This document shows, piece after piece, positions 24,928 through 40,267 of a stretch of 40,267 bases of DNA. The notes under the pieces were generated by a model. That model was not told the DNA's origin and searched no databases. It saw only the letters and a program-made list of their open reading frames with translations. How positions within the stretch are numbered: the first letter of the stretch is position 1; each line of letters begins with the position of its first letter. The translations under genes and the position numbers were made by a program. The stretch spans positions 1 to 40,267 of the forward strand of contig JAAYKY010000005.1 of the NCBI GenBank assembly GCA_012522185.1. The letters run 5' to 3'. Source of the DNA: Flavobacteriaceae bacterium (GTDB lineage Bacteria > Bacteroidota > Bacteroidia > Flavobacteriales > Weeksellaceae).

Positions 24928-25173
24928 ATGGAAACCAATATTATTAAAGTCGGAAATTCCAAAGGAATTATCATTCCGTCAAAACTTCTGAAAATGATTG
25001 GTTTGACCGACAAAGCTCGCATCAAAGTTTTGGACGATAAAATCATGATTGAACCCATTAAAAATCCGCGTGAAGGTTGGGAAGAATTAATTCTCGCGGA
25101 TATTGAGAAAAATGGTGTTCCGGTCAATGAATTACCGGATGTTTTTGAGGATGAAAATTTCGAGGAATGGTAA
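24928..25173 (+). CDS. mazE: MazE/AbrB-type antitoxin
   Basis: This 81-aa protein has an N-terminal swapped-hairpin (SpoVT/AbrB) DNA-binding domain: IIKVGNSKGIIIPSKLLK, then a beta strand with KIMIEPIK. An acidic C-terminal tail (NELPDVFEDENFEEW) would bind the toxin. It overlaps the toxin gene by seven bases. The palindrome upstream is the likely autoregulatory site. Confidence 0.9.
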   Translation: METNIIKVGNSKGIIIPSKLLKMIGLTDKARIKVLDDKIMIEPIKNPREGWEELILADIEKNGVPVNELPDVFEDENFEEW

Positions 25174-25487
25174 AGCAATATGAAATTTACTGGATTAATT
25201 TAGATCCGACCGTCGGAAGTGAGATCAAAAAAACTCGTCCTTGCGTGGTCATTTCACCGGATGTTTCCAATAAATTATTGAATACGGTTTTGATTGCTCC
25301 TATAACTTCTACCCTTCGGAATTTGCCCATGCGATTTGAATTAAATTTAGAAAATAAAACCGGAATTGTTTGTCTGGATCAAATTCGATGTGTCGATAAA
25401 TCAAGGTTAACTAAAAAAATCAGTAAACTTTCAAATTCGGAAACAGAAGTTCTGAAATCAATTTTAAAAGAATATTTAATTGATTAA
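25167..25487 (+). CDS. mazF: MazF-type endoribonuclease toxin
   Basis: This 106-aa protein of the PemK/MazF family cleaves RNA. It begins QYEIYWINLDPTVGSEIKKTRPCVVIS, with the catalytic Arg in KKTRP, and continues with LIAPITST and GIVCLDQIRCVDK. Length is normal. The start overlaps the antitoxin stop, the usual coupling in such modules. The target sequence cannot be told here. The macroglobulin gene follows after 45 bases. Confidence 0.93.
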   Translation: MVKQYEIYWINLDPTVGSEIKKTRPCVVISPDVSNKLLNTVLIAPITSTLRNLPMRFELNLENKTGIVCLDQIRCVDKSRLTKKISKLSNSETEVLKSILKEYLID

Positions 25488-25532: not shown

Positions 25533-28500
25533 ATGAAAAATTTTCTTTTTCTCATCATAATTTTAACCTTCTCATTTTCAATGGCACAGAAAAAATTTGA
25601 TTATAATTCCAAATGGAAAGAAATCGAAAAGCAGGAACAAGACGGCTTACTGAAAAGCGTTTTACCTGCGGTCAATTCGATTTATGCGCAAGCAAAAAAA
25701 GACAAAAATTCGCAGGAAATCATTCGGGCTTTGCTTTATCAGTCCAAAATTGCAATTGCCACTTCCGATGATGATGATACTGAATTACAGATAGTTGAAA
25801 ACTTCCAAAAAGAAATTTTCGAAGCCAAAGGAATGGAGAAATCGGTTTTGCAATCTATGTTGGCAGAATTGTATTTCAATTATTACCAGGAAAATCAATG
25901 GAAAATCAACCAAAGAACCGAAACTGCCGAAAGCACCGGAAATGATTTCCGCTTCTGGACTGAAAATATTTTTCAGCAAAAATCCGCTGAATTATATCTG
26001 CAATCCATTGAAAATCAAAAAGAATTGCAAAATGAACCGATTGGGAATTGGGATTATCTGCTGACGAAAGTCGAAGAAAGCCGTTCGCTTCGTCCTACTT
26101 TGTATGATTTTCTGGCGCACCGAGCGATTCAATTTTTCCAAACGGAAAACAATTATTATTACCGTGGAAATTACGACGCAAAATCAAACGAGGAGAAAAA
26201 AGAAAAAGTATGGCAAATACTGAAAGACCTCTCCGCATTCCATCTCCAAAAAAACAACCAAGATGCGTATTTGTACAACCAATTTGAATTATTAAAAGCC
26301 GAAACAAATGATAGAAATTCAGACGAATATTTGAATGAATTAATTGCATTGTCAAAGAAATTCCCAACTACGGAGTACAACGCTTATATCTTGTTTGAAA
26401 TTGCCAATTTTCATTTGACAAAAGCGGCCAACGAAGAGCCAAAAGCCTTTGATAAAAAGAAAGTATCAACCGAAAAAACTTTATCGGTGCTGAATGAAAT
26501 TCAAACCAAATACCCGAAATCATCGATTTTAATTGAAGCAGAAAAGCTTCAAAAACAAATTCTTTCGTCGGATTTTAGAATTCAGGTTGAAACTTATATT
26601 TCTCCGGATCTGAATACGCCGATACGGGTTTCGCATAAAAATCTGGACAAATTGTATTTTAAAGTATTGAAATACAACGAAGATTTGCTAATGATTTTAA
26701 GACGCTTGCCAAATGACTTTGAAAAATATAAACAACAAAATTTAGACGAAGGAATTAAAAAGTCACAATTAGAAAAAGAATTCCAACTCGATTTAAAAAC
26801 CTTTGACGATTATCAGGAACATTCCACCATCGCCAAACTCGATCCGTTGAAATCCGGTCGTTATCTGGTTTTGGCTTCCAATAATGCGGATTTCCAAGTC
26901 AGTTCAGAAGGCTTTGTTTTTCAGTACCAAATTCTGGATGTTTCGGCTTATTCCATTGTTTTCCGAGAAAATGAAATTTTGGTGACCGAACGGGAAAGTG
27001 GAATTCCGGCGGTCAAACAAAAAGTAGATGTTTTTGAAACGAAAAACAACAAGGAATCAAAAGTTAAAACACTCACCACCAACGAATTTGGAATAGCCGA
27101 TGTAAATTATTCTAAAGAAAATTATCGGACTCTTGCTTTTAAAATGGTCGGCGAAGAAGTTTCCTATCATAATTATTATTATAGAAATCATTCCGATAAT
27201 TCACCACAAGTTGGTAAAAGTTCAAAAATTTTTACGGATCGTGCCATTTATCGTCCTGGACAAACTGTTTATTTCAAAGTAATTCATTATCAAACGAATA
27301 AAGACGAAACTAAAACCGTTCTTAAAGATTTTAAAACTTATGTGAGTTTATATGATGTAAATGATCAATTGATTACCTATTTAGAATTGACAACAAATGA
27401 TTTTGGTTCTGTTTCAGGTGAATTTATTTTACCTTCTGGGGGTTTGACAGGGCAATATTACATCAAGGATACAAATAGTGCGAAATATTATTTCAGCGTG
27501 GAAGAATACAAACGCCCACGATTTGAAGTGGAATTTGAGGATGTAAAAGACACTTTCAAACTCGAAGAAGAAATCACCGCCAAAGGAAAAGCCACGGCTT
27601 ATTCGGGCGCCAACATCGACAATGCCAAAGTCGTTTACAGAGTGTATCGCCAGGCGATTTATCCGTATTGGCCTTGGTGGAAACGCGGCTCTTTCCCTCA
27701 AAGTGAACCGGCAGAAGAAATCACGCACGGCGAAACAATGACCGACGCAGACGGGAAATTTGAGGTAAAATTCAATGCAAAAGCTGCTCCGGTCGTTTCG
27801 AGTAGCCTCAACGACCGGAGTTCGGGGGCTGAGGATACTCGAAGCCCCAGAACCTATACTTATCGCATCGTTGCCGACATCATCGACCTTAATGGCGAAA
27901 CCCGTTCGTCCGAGCAGTCGATTACCGTGGGCGATCTTCGTTTTATGCTGAATATTCCGGTGGCGGATCGAATTGAAATTTCAGAATTCGACTCCATTCC
28001 GATTGTGACGAATAATCTCAACGGACAATTTGTTCCGGCAAAAGGAAAAATCACGCTGACCAAAATCAATCCGCCTTCAAGGGTTTTACGCGATTCGCCT
28101 TTGCAACCAACCGATTATGAATTGTATCCGAAAGATGAATTCATCAATTATTTCCCACACGAAGCTTATGGCGATGAAAACCAAAAAGAAAACTGGGCAA
28201 AAGAAACTCCGGTTTTGAATGAAAATTTCGACACAGAAAAATCCAAATCCCTGAAAATCAATCCTAAAAACTGGAAAGAAGGAACTTATATTTTGCGTGG
28301 ATTTATTCTGGACGGAAAAGACAGCATTCCGCACGAACGATTGGTTTATCTCTACCGAAACGAAAAGAAATCGCCCGTGGACAACGAGATTTTCAATGCG
28401 ACTTTGAACCAATCGACTTACAAACCCGGTGAAACAGCCGTTCTTAATTTGACTTCCGCAACGGAAAATTCAGAAGTTTTGGTTCAATTGGAAGCAGACG

Positions 28501-31500
28501 GAAAAATCATTAAATCGGAAAAAATTAAATTGAACAACAATGTAAATAACTTCCGTTTTCCGATTGATGAAAAACACCGTGGAAATGTCTTTCTACATTA
28601 TTATTTCGGGAAATTCAATACCGCAAAATCCGGAACGATTACGGTAAATGTTCCGCAGGTCGATACTTCGCTGAAAATCACCGCCGGAACACTTCGGGAT
28701 AAATTACAACCCGGACAGGAAGAAATTTGGGAACTGACCGTGAGCGGCGAAGGAAAAGATAAATTCCTGGCCGAAATGCTGGCGACGATGTACGATGCTT
28801 CTTTGGATCAATTCAAATCGAATTCCATCAACTTCCCGATGGGCATCAAAACCAATTATTCATCCTTTCGTTGGAATACCTATCAGAGTTTCGGAACGAA
28901 TTATTTCAATTATTTAATTCAAAATCCTTATCAATATTATTACCCAAATATTTACTTGGCTTTTGATGAACTCAATTGGTTTGGGTTTGGTTGGAACCAA
29001 TACGAGCAGAGAAGATATATGATGATGAAATCAGTGGCTCCGGTTGGAAATGTAGCGGATGCACTTCAAGGTCAAGTTGCCGGAATTGCTTTGGAGGAAA
29101 GTGCTGTGGAAATGGAAGTTGTCACAACAACAGCTTATTCAAGTGCAAATGTTGTAACAATTCGAGGAAACTCTACTTTAGAAGATAATCCAAATGCTTT
29201 AATAGTGGTGGATGGAGTAATCGTAAATCGTGAAGATTTTAAAGCAGAAAGTGTAACTAATATAAATGTTTTAAAAGGAGACGAGGCTACTGCTATTTAT
29301 GGTGCACGTGGTGCAAACGGAGTTATTATCATTACGACCAAACAGGCAGAAGAAAAGTTGAACCAAGTACAAGCAAGAAGTAATCTACAAGAAACCGCTT
29401 TCTTCTATCCGAATTTGCGCACCGACGAAAAAGGAAATGTGAAAATCCAATTCACCACTCCCGAAAGCCTGACTTCCTGGAAATTTATGGCGACGGCGCA
29501 TACACCTGACTTACGCACCGGATATTTCGAAACCACCGTCAGAACCCAAAAAGAATTGATGGTTGTTCCCAATCCGCCGAGATTTTTACGAGAAGGCGAT
29601 CAAATTACTTTCTCTTCCAAAATCACCAATCTTTCCGACAAAGAACTGAGCGGACAAGCCAAACTGATGTTGTTTGATGCGTTTACAATGCAACCGGTGG
29701 ATGCGGAATTTAATAATACAAATGCGACGAAAAACATCTCCGTTTCCAAAGGCAACAGCACAGAAATTTCCTGGACACTGAACATTCCGCAAACCCGACA
29801 GGCCATTGTGTATCGGGTTGTGGCTTCGGCAAGCGATTTTTCGGACGGCGAAGAATCGGCTTTACCGATTTTATCGAACCGTATGATGGTAACCGAAACT
29901 TTGCCGATTCATGTGCGCGAAGGTCAGATCAAAACTTTCACTTTGGATAAATTAAAAAACAATCAGTCGGAAAGCTTAGACCATTTTAAATTGACTTTTG
30001 AAATGACAAGCAATCCGATTTGGTATGCGATTTTCTCTTTGCCGTATTTGCGCGAATATCCATACGAATGTTCGGAACAGGTTTTTGCGCGGCTTTACGG
30101 AAATATGATTTCGCAGCACATCATCCATTCCAATCCGAAAATAAAAGCGGTTTTTGATGATTGGAACGCCAAAGGTGAATTGGTTTCAAAACTCGAACAA
30201 AATCAGGAGCTGAAATCCCTTCTTTTGGAAGAAACGCCTTGGGTGCGCGATGCGCAAAGCGAAGAAGAACAAATGAAACGAATTGCAGTTTTGTTTGATT
30301 TGAATAAAATGCGAAACGAACTTCAATCTGCGTATCAAAAATTAGCAGCCAAACAAAGCGGTTCGGGCGGATTTCCTTGGTTTGAAGGCGGCGATGATAA
30401 TCGATACATCACCACGCACATCGTTTCCGGTTTCGGACATTTGAAAGAAATGGGCATTGATTATGAATCCAATTTCGATATCAATTCCGAAAAAATCTTG
30501 GAAAAAGCCATTGAGTTCATCGACAATGAAATGGAAAAAGAATTTGACAAATATTTGAAAAACAATAAATTGACACCATCGGTTTACAATGGAATTCAAT
30601 ATTTGTATGCGAGAAGTTATTTCTTGGAGAAATATCCGATGAGCAAAAAAGCCAATCAGGCAAAAGATTATTTCCTGAAGGAATTGGACAAAGGAAAATT
30701 TGAACAAGGCTTACAAACCCAAGCGATGTTGGCGATGATTTTCAATCGTTTCGGAAAAAAAGATTTGGCCGTCAAAATTTTAAATTCAATCAAAGACAAT
30801 TCGGTGGAAAGTGACGAAATGGGAATGTATTGGAAATCCAATGTAGCCGGATGGTTCTGGTACCAAGCACCGATTGAAACACAGGCGATGTTGATTGAAG
30901 CATTTGACGAAGTTTTAAGCGATGTTGAGAGCGTAGAAAGTATGAAAGTTTGGTTGTTGAAAAATCGTCAAACCAATCAATGGAGTTCTACCAAATCCAC
31001 TACCGAAGCGGTTTTTGCCCTAATGAGTACCGGAAAAGATTGGGCCAATGCCGAAGAAGGAATTTCAGTGAAAATTGGTGGCGAAAATTTAGACTTAAAA
31101 AAATTGGAAAAAGCACCACAAAGCGGAAGTGGTTATGTAAAAACAAGTTGGGACAAAGAAGAAATCCAACCGGAAATGGCAATAGTAAATGTTCAGAAAA
31201 CTTCTCCGGGCGTGGCTTGGGGCGCGATGTATTGGCAATATTTTGAAGATTTAGATCAAATTACCTCGGCTGAAACAGGCGTGAAATTCCGTAAAGAATT
31301 ATTCCTGAAAAAGAATTCAGATAGCGGACCGGTTTTGACCAAAATTACCGAAAATACACCGATACAAATCGGAGATTTGGTTACGGTACGATTGGAAATC
31401 CAAACCGACAGAGAAATGGAATTTGTGCATATCAAGGACATGCGTGCCAGCGGATTTGAACCGACCAATGTGCTCTCGACTTACAAATGGCAGCAAGGAA

Positions 31501-31697
31501 TGGGTTATTATGAAAGCACCCGCGATGCGGCTACCAATTTCTTCATTGACCGCATGCCGAAAGGAACTTATGTTTTTGAATACGATGTGAGAGCCAACAA
31601 CGCCGGGAATTTCTCCAACGGAATTACTTCGCTTCAAAATATGTATGCGCCAGAGCTAAGCGCCCACAGCGAAGGAATTCGGGTGGAGATTGAGTAA
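25533..31697 (+). CDS. Alpha-2-macroglobulin-like protein with an inserted TonB plug domain
   Basis: This 2054-aa exported protein has a signal peptide (about residues 1-18, ending SFSMAQ) without a lipobox. The N-terminal third is a Bacteroidetes-specific region. Macroglobulin (MG) domains follow, with the FTDRAIYRPGQTVYFKV signature near residues 566-582. Residues of about 1172-1270 form a SusC/RagA-type plug: TIRGNSTL, LIVVDGV, INVLKGDEATAIYGARGANG and IIITTK. The alpha-2-macroglobulin core resumes at TAFFYPNLRTDEKGNVKI. The thioester motif C-x-E-Q is intact at 1513-1516 (YECSEQ). The protein should trap proteases in the cell envelope. The plug occupies the place of the bait region. A palindromic element is read in frame at residues 752-772. 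No PbpC-type partner gene is adjacent. Confidence 0.9.
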   Translation: MKNFLFLIIILTFSFSMAQKKFDYNSKWKEIEKQEQDGLLKSVLPAVNSIYAQAKKDKNSQEIIRALLYQSKIAIATSDDDDTELQIVENFQKEIFEAKGMEKSVLQSMLAELYFNYYQENQWKINQRTETAESTGNDFRFWTENIFQQKSAELYLQSIENQKELQNEPIGNWDYLLTKVEESRSLRPTLYDFLAHRAIQFFQTENNYYYRGNYDAKSNEEKKEKVWQILKDLSAFHLQKNNQDAYLYNQFELLKAETNDRNSDEYLNELIALSKKFPTTEYNAYILFEIANFHLTKAANEEPKAFDKKKVSTEKTLSVLNEIQTKYPKSSILIEAEKLQKQILSSDFRIQVETYISPDLNTPIRVSHKNLDKLYFKVLKYNEDLLMILRRLPNDFEKYKQQNLDEGIKKSQLEKEFQLDLKTFDDYQEHSTIAKLDPLKSGRYLVLASNNADFQVSSEGFVFQYQILDVSAYSIVFRENEILVTERESGIPAVKQKVDVFETKNNKESKVKTLTTNEFGIADVNYSKENYRTLAFKMVGEEVSYHNYYYRNHSDNSPQVGKSSKIFTDRAIYRPGQTVYFKVIHYQTNKDETKTVLKDFKTYVSLYDVNDQLITYLELTTNDFGSVSGEFILPSGGLTGQYYIKDTNSAKYYFSVEEYKRPRFEVEFEDVKDTFKLEEEITAKGKATAYSGANIDNAKVVYRVYRQAIYPYWPWWKRGSFPQSEPAEEITHGETMTDADGKFEVKFNAKAAPVVSSSLNDRSSGAEDTRSPRTYTYRIVADIIDLNGETRSSEQSITVGDLRFMLNIPVADRIEISEFDSIPIVTNNLNGQFVPAKGKITLTKINPPSRVLRDSPLQPTDYELYPKDEFINYFPHEAYGDENQKENWAKETPVLNENFDTEKSKSLKINPKNWKEGTYILRGFILDGKDSIPHERLVYLYRNEKKSPVDNEIFNATLNQSTYKPGETAVLNLTSATENSEVLVQLEADGKIIKSEKIKLNNNVNNFRFPIDEKHRGNVFLHYYFGKFNTAKSGTITVNVPQVDTSLKITAGTLRDKLQPGQEEIWELTVSGEGKDKFLAEMLATMYDASLDQFKSNSINFPMGIKTNYSSFRWNTYQSFGTNYFNYLIQNPYQYYYPNIYLAFDELNWFGFGWNQYEQRRYMMMKSVAPVGNVADALQGQVAGIALEESAVEMEVVTTTAYSSANVVTIRGNSTLEDNPNALIVVDGVIVNREDFKAESVTNINVLKGDEATAIYGARGANGVIIITTKQAEEKLNQVQARSNLQETAFFYPNLRTDEKGNVKIQFTTPESLTSWKFMATAHTPDLRTGYFETTVRTQKELMVVPNPPRFLREGDQITFSSKITNLSDKELSGQAKLMLFDAFTMQPVDAEFNNTNATKNISVSKGNSTEISWTLNIPQTRQAIVYRVVASASDFSDGEESALPILSNRMMVTETLPIHVREGQIKTFTLDKLKNNQSESLDHFKLTFEMTSNPIWYAIFSLPYLREYPYECSEQVFARLYGNMISQHIIHSNPKIKAVFDDWNAKGELVSKLEQNQELKSLLLEETPWVRDAQSEEEQMKRIAVLFDLNKMRNELQSAYQKLAAKQSGSGGFPWFEGGDDNRYITTHIVSGFGHLKEMGIDYESNFDINSEKILEKAIEFIDNEMEKEFDKYLKNNKLTPSVYNGIQYLYARSYFLEKYPMSKKANQAKDYFLKELDKGKFEQGLQTQAMLAMIFNRFGKKDLAVKILNSIKDNSVESDEMGMYWKSNVAGWFWYQAPIETQAMLIEAFDEVLSDVESVESMKVWLLKNRQTNQWSSTKSTTEAVFALMSTGKDWANAEEGISVKIGGENLDLKKLEKAPQSGSGYVKTSWDKEEIQPEMAIVNVQKTSPGVAWGAMYWQYFEDLDQITSAETGVKFRKELFLKKNSDSGPVLTKITENTPIQIGDLVTVRLEIQTDREMEFVHIKDMRASGFEPTNVLSTYKWQQGMGYYESTRDAATNFFIDRMPKGTYVFEYDVRANNAGNFSNGITSLQNMYAPELSAHSEGIRVEIE
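27787..27848. repeat. Two palindromes read in frame inside the macroglobulin gene
   Basis: CTCCGGTCGTT (27787-27797) pairs perfectly with AACGACCGGAG (27810-27820). GGGGCT (27825-27830) pairs with AGCCCC (27843-27848). Loop words TTCGAGTAGCCTCA and CTGAGGATACTCGAAG resemble the CTTCGACTxCGCTCAG-type repeats seen between genes in many Bacteroidetes. They encode a Ser/Asp/Arg-rich stretch, unlike the flanking beta-domain sequence. Confidence 0.75.
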
Positions 31698-31934: not shown

Positions 31935-32333
31935 ATGGAATTATTACACAAAGATTTAACAGATCAAATTCTTAAAGCATTCTACGATGTTTATAACGAG
32001 ATGGGGTATGGATTTTTAGAAAAGGTTTATCAGAATTCGCTTTATTTAGAATTAAAAACAAGAGGTTTTGATGTGAAAGCACATAGTCAGATTAAGGTAT
32101 TTTACAAAGGATTTGAAGTTGGAGTATATTTTGCCGATTTAATCGTAAATGATTTAGTTATACTCGAATTGAAGGCGACAGATTTTAATATTGAAGAATT
32201 TGAATGGCAATTGGTAAATTATCTACGTGCGACTCCTATAGAAGTTGGATTACTGCTCAATTTCGGAAAACAACCTGAGTTTAAAAGAAAAGTATTCTCC
32301 AATGAGAGAAAAAAATTAAAGGATTTTCATTAA
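31935..32333 (+). CDS. GxxExxY protein (predicted PD-(D/E)XK fold)
   Basis: This 132-aa complete member has the defining G-F-L-E-K-V-Y at residues 26-32. The segment YFADLIVNDLVILELKA gives Asp68, Glu78 and Lys80, the pattern of a PD-(D/E)XK nuclease core. The C-terminal GLLLNFGKQPEFKR is also typical. The family is very common in Bacteroidetes, and its function is unproven. It sits alone between repeats, with no restriction genes near. A second, incomplete member is at 1-95. Confidence 0.88.
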   Translation: MELLHKDLTDQILKAFYDVYNEMGYGFLEKVYQNSLYLELKTRGFDVKAHSQIKVFYKGFEVGVYFADLIVNDLVILELKATDFNIEEFEWQLVNYLRATPIEVGLLLNFGKQPEFKRKVFSNERKKLKDFH

Positions 32334-39556: not shown

Positions 39557-40267
39557 ATGAAATTACGTTCTGCTCATCTGACGCGCTATATTTTGCCGCT
39601 TCGCGAAGGAGGTTCGCTTCCTGCCTTGGCCGAAGCCGATGATGATTTCAAATACGTGGTCAAATTCAAAGGATCGGGGCACCGCGAGAAATCCGTCATT
39701 GCCGAACTTCTGGGTGGTGAAATCGCCAGAAATTTAGGTTTCAAAGTACCCGAACTCGTCTTTCTAAATGTGGACGAAGCCTTTGGCAGAACCGAAGGCG
39801 ATGAAGAAATTCAGGATTTATTACAGGCCAGCCAAGGAACGAATTTGGGTTTGCATTTCCTTTCAGGTGCGATCAATTACGATCCGAATGTCATGAAAAT
39901 AGATGCAGAAACTGCCTCGAGAATTGTTTGGCTCGATGCCTTCATTACCAATGTGGACCGCACCTTCCGAAATACCAATATGCTGATGTGGAACAAGGAA
40001 TTATGGCTGATTGACCATGGTTCTAGCTTTTATTTTCACCACAGTTGGGACAATTGGGAAAAACAGGCAGAAAGTCCTTTTTCGTTTATCAAAGACCACG
40101 TTTTATTGGGCGAAGCAAGCGAAATCGAAAAAGCAGATGCCGATTTAAAACCTTTGATTACGGACGAATTCATCCATGAATTGGTTGAATTAATTCCCGA
40201 CGAATGGTTGGAGTGGGGTTATGCTAAATAGCCCGCCGAACTGCATGAAGTCTATGCAGACTTTATA
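39557..40267 (+). pseudogene. HipA-like kinase with an in-frame TAG near its C-terminus
   Basis: The gene reads 224 aa to a TAG at 40229-40231. Hallmarks are KYVVKFKGSGHREKS near the start, AFITNVDRTFRNTNML with its Asn/Asp catalytic residues, and LIDHGSSFYFHH with the metal-binding Asp. These match the small HipA-like kinase family (HipA_2). The 12 codons after the TAG continue in the same frame to the window edge as P-A-E-L-H-E-V-Y-A-D-F-I, which looks like the family's C-terminal helix. The gene may therefore have lost its last few dozen residues, or it carries a base error. The kinase core is intact and could still work. In other genomes such genes often precede a DUF3037 gene, which would lie outside this window. 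Confidence 0.65.

Follow-up and report, generated by a model that had tools for sequence, protein, structure and literature searches.

The window analysed here is a 40,267-nucleotide stretch of contig JAAYKY010000005.1 from a Flavobacteriaceae bacterium, and it carries a gene for an alpha-2-macroglobulin (A2M) of the thioester type with a plug domain of SusC/RagA-type outer-membrane transporters in its bait region. The open reading frame (ORF) runs uninterrupted from ATG to stop and encodes 2054 amino acids (Table 1). When the whole protein was searched against Pfam, its MG2, bait-region (BRD), A2M and bMG10 domains all scored above their curated cut-offs, and C1513, within the CSEQ thioester motif, proved to be its sole cysteine. 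An initial annotation made from the letters of the window had placed a SusC/RagA-type plug at about residues 1172-1270, within the bait region of a thioester A2M; Pfam, NCBIfam and an alignment to the E. coli A2M (ECAM) bear this out and set the exact stretch at residues 1173-1270.

Table 1. The A2M gene of the window and its parts; positions count from the first letter of the window. pLDDT, predicted local confidence score; HMM, hidden Markov model; MG, macroglobulin; aa, amino acids.
Feature	Position	Strand	Basis or remark
A2M gene, thioester type	25533..31697	+	hydrophobic N-terminus, without lipobox cysteine
MG2 domain, aa 566-646	27228..27470	+	Pfam PF01835, 51.3 bits
A2M_BRD, bait-region domain preceding the bait, aa 957-1064	28401..28724	+	Pfam PF07703, 30.8 bits
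Predicted disordered bait stretch, aa 1099-1219	28827..29189	+	AlphaFold2 pLDDT 22-41 (blocks of ten)
SusC/RagA plug-derived insert, aa 1173-1270	29049..29342	+	PF07715, TIGR04057, TIGR04056; local plug HMM E 1.1e-18
Plug C-terminal half, predicted beta-beta-beta-alpha-beta-alpha, aa 1220-1281	29190..29375	+	AlphaFold2 pLDDT about 68-80
A2M domain directly 3' of the insert, aa 1288-1375	29394..29657	+	Pfam PF00207, 74 bits
Thioester motif CSEQ, aa 1513-1516	30069..30080	+	sequence motif
bMG10, C-terminal MG domain, aa 1916-2041	31278..31655	+	Pfam PF17973, 118.8 bits

The plug match was significant in both libraries. PF07715 matched residues 1170-1264 of the whole protein with 32.6 bits against a cut-off of 23.9 (E 1.2e-7), and the SusC/RagA signature TIGR04057 reached 49.9 bits against 46.2. 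The full-length SusC model TIGR04056 gave 96.2 bits (E 1.7e-27; cut-off 368.25) and was covered at positions 109-220 of 981 alone; therefore no beta-barrel follows the plug, as had been proposed. A genome-wide search with PF07715 (E<=0.001) returned 18 matches and the A2M gene was not among them, so the plug is weak and partial. The insert is 50-51% identical to the plugs of other A2Ms (L108, L109 and L105) and 34-43% identical to six SusC loci of its own genome that match it with E<1e-9.

The plug had also been noted to differ in codon usage and to be poorer in Lys and Glu, and this is the case. GC content at third codon positions (GC3) is 0.173 in the plug and 0.402 elsewhere in the gene, at the 2nd percentile of 196 gene windows, and the Lys plus Glu fraction is 0.112 against a mean of 0.169 for such windows (8th percentile). 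Low GC3 as a trait of all plugs was ruled out by seven SusC plugs of the same genome, which average 0.37 and are not low, and the codon difference of the A2M plug is therefore real. In three related A2Ms, plug GC3 also falls below that of the rest of the gene, by 0.14, 0.02 and 0.08. The unusually low GC3 would suit an assembly chimera or a pseudogene relic. However, the ORF is open, the thioester is intact and the same architecture recurs across many independent assemblies and isolates, which leaves such an origin exceedingly improbable. A chimeric assembly, the case that the initial annotation had raised against itself, is excluded because a congener (L031/L108) has, at this very site, a plug of 51% identity, beside a downstream segment that is 83% identical, and because other Flavobacteriales also have plugs there.

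A profile of the post-bait region matched no PDB sequence at 0.01, and the bait was therefore located by a profile alignment, made with our own script, of 25 A2Ms (the window's and 24 named loci) to ECAM. Residues 923-972 of ECAM align to residues 1124-1284 of the window protein, which has the plug as an insertion relative to ECAM. Of the cleaved ECAM, bait residues 923-942 are described as lacking density and residues 947-963 as binding the C-terminal domain (PMC4498604). Together, the alignment and the undense bait residues place the insert in the bait. In an AlphaFold2 model of residues 950-1518 (28 alignment rows, mean pLDDT 62.5, predicted template-modelling score (pTM) 0.47), ordered MG domains are followed by about 120 disordered residues and then by a small beta-alpha fold at residues 1220-1281. 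The disordered stretch holds the SusC motifs LQGQVAGI and IRGNST. In the window bait, the LxGxVAGV motif (LxG) is significant against shuffled sequences (p<=0.01); the IRG motif and the TonB box, which is degenerate, are not (p>0.01). The best Foldseek matches of the modelled segment were C4, C3 and the Salmonella and E. coli A2Ms, and the profile of the segment's alignment matched, through the insert, nine SusC/RagA-type PDB sequences (5t3r, E 3.5e-10) and no A2M. For a relative with a full insert (L366), the model predicts a folded N-terminal extension (NTE) with a pLDDT of about 86-90, disorder along the stretch with the TonB box and a plug that is half folded (overall mean pLDDT 65.3, pTM 0.32). 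The two models, built on 24-28 alignment rows, are both of low confidence overall.

In the window's family, 86 of 100 genomes encode A2M domains, as do 211 of 295 genomes in a class sample. Sequences matching the window's own A2M segment (E<=0.001) were present in 47 of 196 order-sample genomes and in 137 of 249 genomes of a sample of family f3; the group codes f1 and f3 stand for Weeksellaceae and Flavobacteriaceae, respectively, as inferred from named matches. A plug at the same place in relatives was anticipated, and this held for the site and not for its presence, as only two of the five main-type A2Ms of the genus carry one (the window's and that of G009, with none in G038, G055 and G079). 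Among 90 class loci beyond the main set (88 outside the order and two from its other families), eight gave a SusC N-terminal match, which in each lies in the longest ORF, the A2M itself; judged by coordinates, in L308, L313 and L314 it lies at most about 100 bases 5' of the A2M domain. The same insert thus lies at the bait position in some divergent A2Ms from beyond Flavobacteriales. A2Ms 53-59% identical to that of the window were also met in assemblies labelled Cloacimonadota, Ignavibacteria, Acidobacteriota, Aminicenantes and Calditrichota (L341, L343, L345, L356, L364, L369, L400 and L405), which may reflect transfer or mis-binning.

For a survey of bait content, baits were defined as the stretch from the end of the BRD to the A2M domain and were excised by two sequence patterns; loci that do not fit the patterns, including several divergent A2Ms seen only in later ORF scans, are absent from the bait counts. 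Loci L111-L128 and L210-L237 were taken from the top scores in their searches and not drawn at random, and L238-L277 were kept apart as f3_long because they had been chosen largely for long ORFs. The 'named' set overlaps partly with the other genome sets. The 67 'other' baits of the class include one (L326) that belongs to the window's order but to a different family, and the 62 outside-order baits compared with motif matrices are all from outside it. The matrices were built from the 16 of 30 SusC loci that fit a pattern, and were evaluated against 300 shuffles per bait and 100 per control window.

Many Flavobacteriales baits hold the periplasmic N-terminus of SusC, namely a CarboxypepD-like NTE, the TonB box LDEVVV, the LxG and IRG motifs and the plug. 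The copies range from complete, colinear ones to partial or permuted ones. The TonB box was significant (p<=0.01) in 35 of 81 f1, 25 of 45 f3, 31 of 37 f3_long and 3 of 62 outside-order baits. The corresponding counts were 31, 21, 25 and 2 for LxG and 20, 13, 20 and 1 for IRG. Control windows elsewhere in the same ORFs gave 4, 0 and 0 of 226 for the TonB box, LxG and IRG, respectively. At p<=0.005, at least one of the three motifs was present in 50/81 f1, 33/45 f3, 34/37 f3_long, 34/69 named and 4/67 other baits. Furthermore, a library scan of 127 baits (f1, f3 and the window; E<=0.01) found the SusC model in 43, the SusC signature and Plug in 19 each, two CarboxypepD_reg (NTE) models in 17 each and BamP in 14, the last lying over the NTE in the three cases inspected. 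Less frequent were two TonB-siderophore receptor models (8 and 6), CooC_C (7), TraB (5), TTR_TEN1-4 (4), PA1041 (3) and CILP (2), with further models in one or two baits. The 67 other baits of the class yielded CarboxypepD_reg twice and Plug once. Since the insert of relatives is often a whole SusC N-terminus or a set of permuted motifs, the plug of the window is a single component of a broader pattern, and SusC N-terminal pieces as a source of bait extend well past the single plug noted at the outset.

The sampling of SusC is confined to its N-terminus. Across 300 unique baits, the full-length SusC profile gave 113 matches that are wholly N-terminal, with 107 baits having their match wholly within the N-terminus, and no match started in the barrel; held-out barrel fragments of 40-90 residues were detected in 67-97% of cases. 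Any SusC-profile match was found in 22/81 f1, 27/45 f3, 35/37 f3_long, 21/69 named and 3/67 other baits, and in that of the window. The NTE, TonB box and plug occurred together in 8/45 f3, 19/37 f3_long, 6/69 named and none of the 81 f1 baits. The bait of Algibacter marinivivus has an NTE and a TonB box. A few baits have other recurrent content. Thrombospondin type 3 (TSP3) repeats (DxDGDGxxDxxDACPTVPG) were seen by eye in L047, L084, L086, L090 and L098, and a V-I/V-QN-I/V-VPEP-x-KAPK motif recurs in the distinct f1 baits L061, L085 and L134. The model of the gliding lipoprotein GldJ reached E 1e-9 at best in two of the 127 baits and matched none of ten baits scanned singly.

In SusC proper, the order is TonB box, LxG, IRG. 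Among baits in which the TonB box and LxG are both significant, the TonB box precedes LxG in 2 f1 baits and follows it in 17 (9 and 6, respectively, in f3; 21 and 2 in f3_long). L220, L221 and L226 run in the order IRG, LxG, TonB box, with IRG only at p 0.013 and 0.023 in L220 and L226. These orders are unlike that of SusC, and the pieces have therefore been rearranged and not merely decayed. The baits also turn over quickly. Where the flanks are 80-85% identical (average 82%), the bait core averages 41% over 128 overlapping pairs, a comparison that keeps L058/L137, which were excised too short and were omitted from the motif-retention pairs. Two Algibacter relatives (L362 and L392) have a nearly identical pre-bait stretch and wholly different baits.

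While present, the SusC parts appear constrained. The ratio of nonsynonymous to synonymous substitution rates (dN/dS) was below 1 in 17 of 18 computable pairs (19 aligned), a small count of overlapping pairs, and ranged over 0.12-0.34 in the six pairs whose SusC parts exceed 300 nucleotide sites; it lay mostly above that of the downstream MG part. Searches of G718 and G574, with one bait each, revealed no donor gene of high DNA identity, and a recent donor was rejected for both, as the best matches were short and partial (77% over 87 bases in G718, where 40 of 76 candidates were scored; 84% over 43 bases in G574). As to whether the plug was captured once or several times, the phylogeny of 75 plugs (92 columns) requires 8 label changes, or 7 without two long rows; its well-supported branches force at least 2, a single A2M plug clade occurred in none of 200 bootstrap trees, and the approximately unbiased (AU) test did not reject such a clade (p 0.198). 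Taken together, the turnover, dN/dS and donor results indicate that baits are replaced often, are constrained while present and are refilled from the same source. Bait exchange between A2M alleles would be the simplest route.

SusC N-termini are also found in other proteins. Four VWA (YfbK-like) proteins (L409, L424, L431 and L437) have a SusC-type NTE and TonB box and no barrel; in L409 (305-2131, minus strand) the NTE, TonB box and IRG lie ahead of the VWA part. At class level, 8 of 17 VWA loci gave a SusC N-terminal match and 3 a clear TonB-box motif. A DUF4139 protein (L410, 1164-3167, plus strand; the same as L455) has an NTE and TonB box inserted mid-protein. L455 is the one profile match among 30 DUF4139 loci, and L451 has a TonB-box-like motif only.

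Based on our results, we tentatively propose that the protein traps proteases in the periplasm as a soluble molecule, using a bait that imitates the exposed end of outer-membrane transporters of the same cell. The domain order, the position of the bait, the SusC origin of its pieces, the restriction to the N-terminus, the permutation, the fast turnover and the dN/dS values mostly below 1 are computed results and well supported. The protein would function as an A2M, presumably in the periplasm. A protease cutting the bait would make the A2M collapse around it and would then be bound through the thioester C1513-Q1516. In the window protein, about 120 disordered residues and, after them, a half-folded remnant of the plug would make up the bait. 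Mimicry would be the reason for the SusC pieces, as a protease that attacks exposed transporter N-termini would cut the self-mimic and be trapped. In human A2M, the bait is reported to be fully replaceable and to tolerate Gly-Gly-Ser repeats, and inserted substrate sequences set which protease cuts it and is trapped (PMC8267569). Of the three roles first suggested for the plug, that of bait fits best, with the proviso that the plug is a single element among several. A role as an anchor to a barrel finds no support here, since a fold is predicted for the C-terminal half of the plug alone. Docking of the TonB box to TonB itself is, for the relatives, a more concrete form of the suggested docking to a receptor.

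Several observations weigh against this proposal. We identified no protease that cuts SusC N-termini, and the NTE-TonB box unit is also part of VWA and DUF4139 proteins, neither of which is known to trap proteases. All three motifs failed to reach p<=0.01 in 29 of 81 f1 baits, and non-SusC envelope sequences are present as well (TSP_3 in 5 and GldJ in 2 of 127 baits). In independent close pairs, the motifs are no more conserved than the remainder of the bait (TonB box 0.46 versus 0.37, Wilcoxon p 0.13; LxG 0.33 versus 0.37; IRG 0.45 versus 0.42), and the partner has a motif at about the base rate (TonB box 19/47 versus 0.38; LxG 14/42 versus 0.34; IRG 7/25 versus 0.25). In four very short SusC parts (62-87 nucleotide sites), dN/dS was 0.57-1.06. 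In human A2M, 10-20 additional bait residues are reported to spoil the native form; the same study finds that bait length matters and that disulfide-closed loops do not count (PMC9352918). Folded pieces with close ends, such as the NTE and the half-plug, could act like such loops and may keep a bait of 150-350 residues effectively short. Selection on the TonB box at fixed places was considered separately and rejected, as the 0.49 versus 0.31 seen in overlapping pairs disappeared with independent ones.

Self-mimicry by the bait remains the most likely reading, followed by a neutral spacer and then by a handle for TonB. As a spacer, the bait need only be long, flexible and cleavable; its SusC origin would reflect supply and compatibility with the periplasm, and fragments of susC or other envelope genes would be captured, or A2M bait cassettes swapped, and then drift. 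We regard this as possible and clearly less probable than mimicry. Fast turnover agrees with it, as do motifs whose presence is not inherited at about 83% flank identity, the unlike Algibacter baits, the TSP3 repeats and the reported function of human A2M with a Gly-Ser bait (PMC8267569). Weighing against it, SusC matches are N-terminal with none starting in the barrel, and aligned inserts have dN/dS mostly well below 1; the two genomes searched gave no DNA-level donor, and complete in-frame NTE-TonB box-plug units recur even outside the order (L313 and L314). The remaining alternative, which we consider unlikely, is that the NTE-TonB box serves as a portable module through which periplasmic proteins are held or pulled by TonB-ExbBD, with TonB binding placing the trap at the interface of TonB and transporter or tensing the bait. 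The LDEVVV of relatives belongs to the same type as VDEVVV, the SusC TonB box of Bt1763, shown by deletion in work that describes the SusC NTE (PF13715) as of unknown function (PMC7782687). The frequent TonB boxes of f1 and f3 baits also fit, and the VWA and DUF4139 cases, L409 included, point to a portable module and are the main reason that this reading is kept. Against it, the TonB box of the window is not significant, other baits keep a plug with no detectable TonB box, the box is no better kept than its surroundings in independent pairs, and in f1 it follows LxG in 17 of 19 cases, unlike SusC. Rather doubtful, and a shade less likely still, is a broader version in which the SusC N-terminus (NTE and TonB box, with or without plug) is grafted into non-transport periplasmic proteins for TonB to grip; the A2M trap would then be tethered or armed by TonB, with the bait also a mimic.

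The surroundings of the gene offer no apparent operon partner in a scan of 20 window ORFs and a clustering of the neighbours of 72 relatives, where the commonest same-strand cluster, among clusters left unannotated, comprises 10 loci. A MazF/PemK-like toxin gene (25167-25484, plus strand) lies directly 5' of the A2M gene, an ORF of the PD-(D/E)XK nuclease superfamily (PDDEXK_3; 31935-32330, plus strand) follows it, and a HipA-like kinase ORF (39557-40228, plus strand) lies at the window end. The genome also encodes a second, divergent A2M (G000:C1:107445-107687, L049) in a 1867-residue frame with CLEQ, which gave no SusC profile match within the part fetched.

The window protein shares with type I bacterial A2Ms (ECAM/YfhM and SaA2M) the MG domains, BRD, A2M domain and CXEQ thioester, a bait ahead of the A2M domain and the fold of the segment. 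It differs in the SusC N-terminal pieces of its bait, in lacking the ECAM-type lipobox cysteine after the signal peptide, its sole cysteine being C1513, and in having no co-encoded PBP1c (pbpC) among the 20 window ORFs scanned. Type II (MagD) A2Ms are described as having no CXEQ motif (PMC5764988), unlike the window protein with its CSEQ. With SusC/RagA transporters, it shares a plug signature above cut-off, and its relatives share the NTE (PF13715), the TonB box LDEVVV and the plug in SusC order; in contrast, the A2M pieces have no barrel, are often partial or permuted and lie inside another protein. Complement C3, C4 and C5 have an anaphylatoxin domain inserted near the same place. The A2M segment resembles complement in its top Foldseek matches, but the inserted domain is unrelated, and the A2M would be a protease trap rather than an opsonin. 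In engineered human A2M, too, the bait is exchangeable and specificity is set by the inserted substrate (PMC8267569), whereas here the modular exchange would be natural, in bacteria, and would use pieces of self proteins. Among the papers listed from the open-licence literature, with subscription journals mostly outside its scope, none joins a bacterial A2M with a plug, SusC or a TonB box; protein databases may already display the domain pair without comment.

To our knowledge, no natural target protease has been agreed upon for bacterial A2Ms. If baits copy the ends of the cell's own transporters, the sequence of a bait would name the substrate class of the protease that it traps, making the open question of the target directly testable, and these baits would be a natural counterpart to the retargeting of human A2M by bait exchange. 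NTE-TonB boxes in proteins other than transporters would imply that TonB may serve non-transporter clients too.

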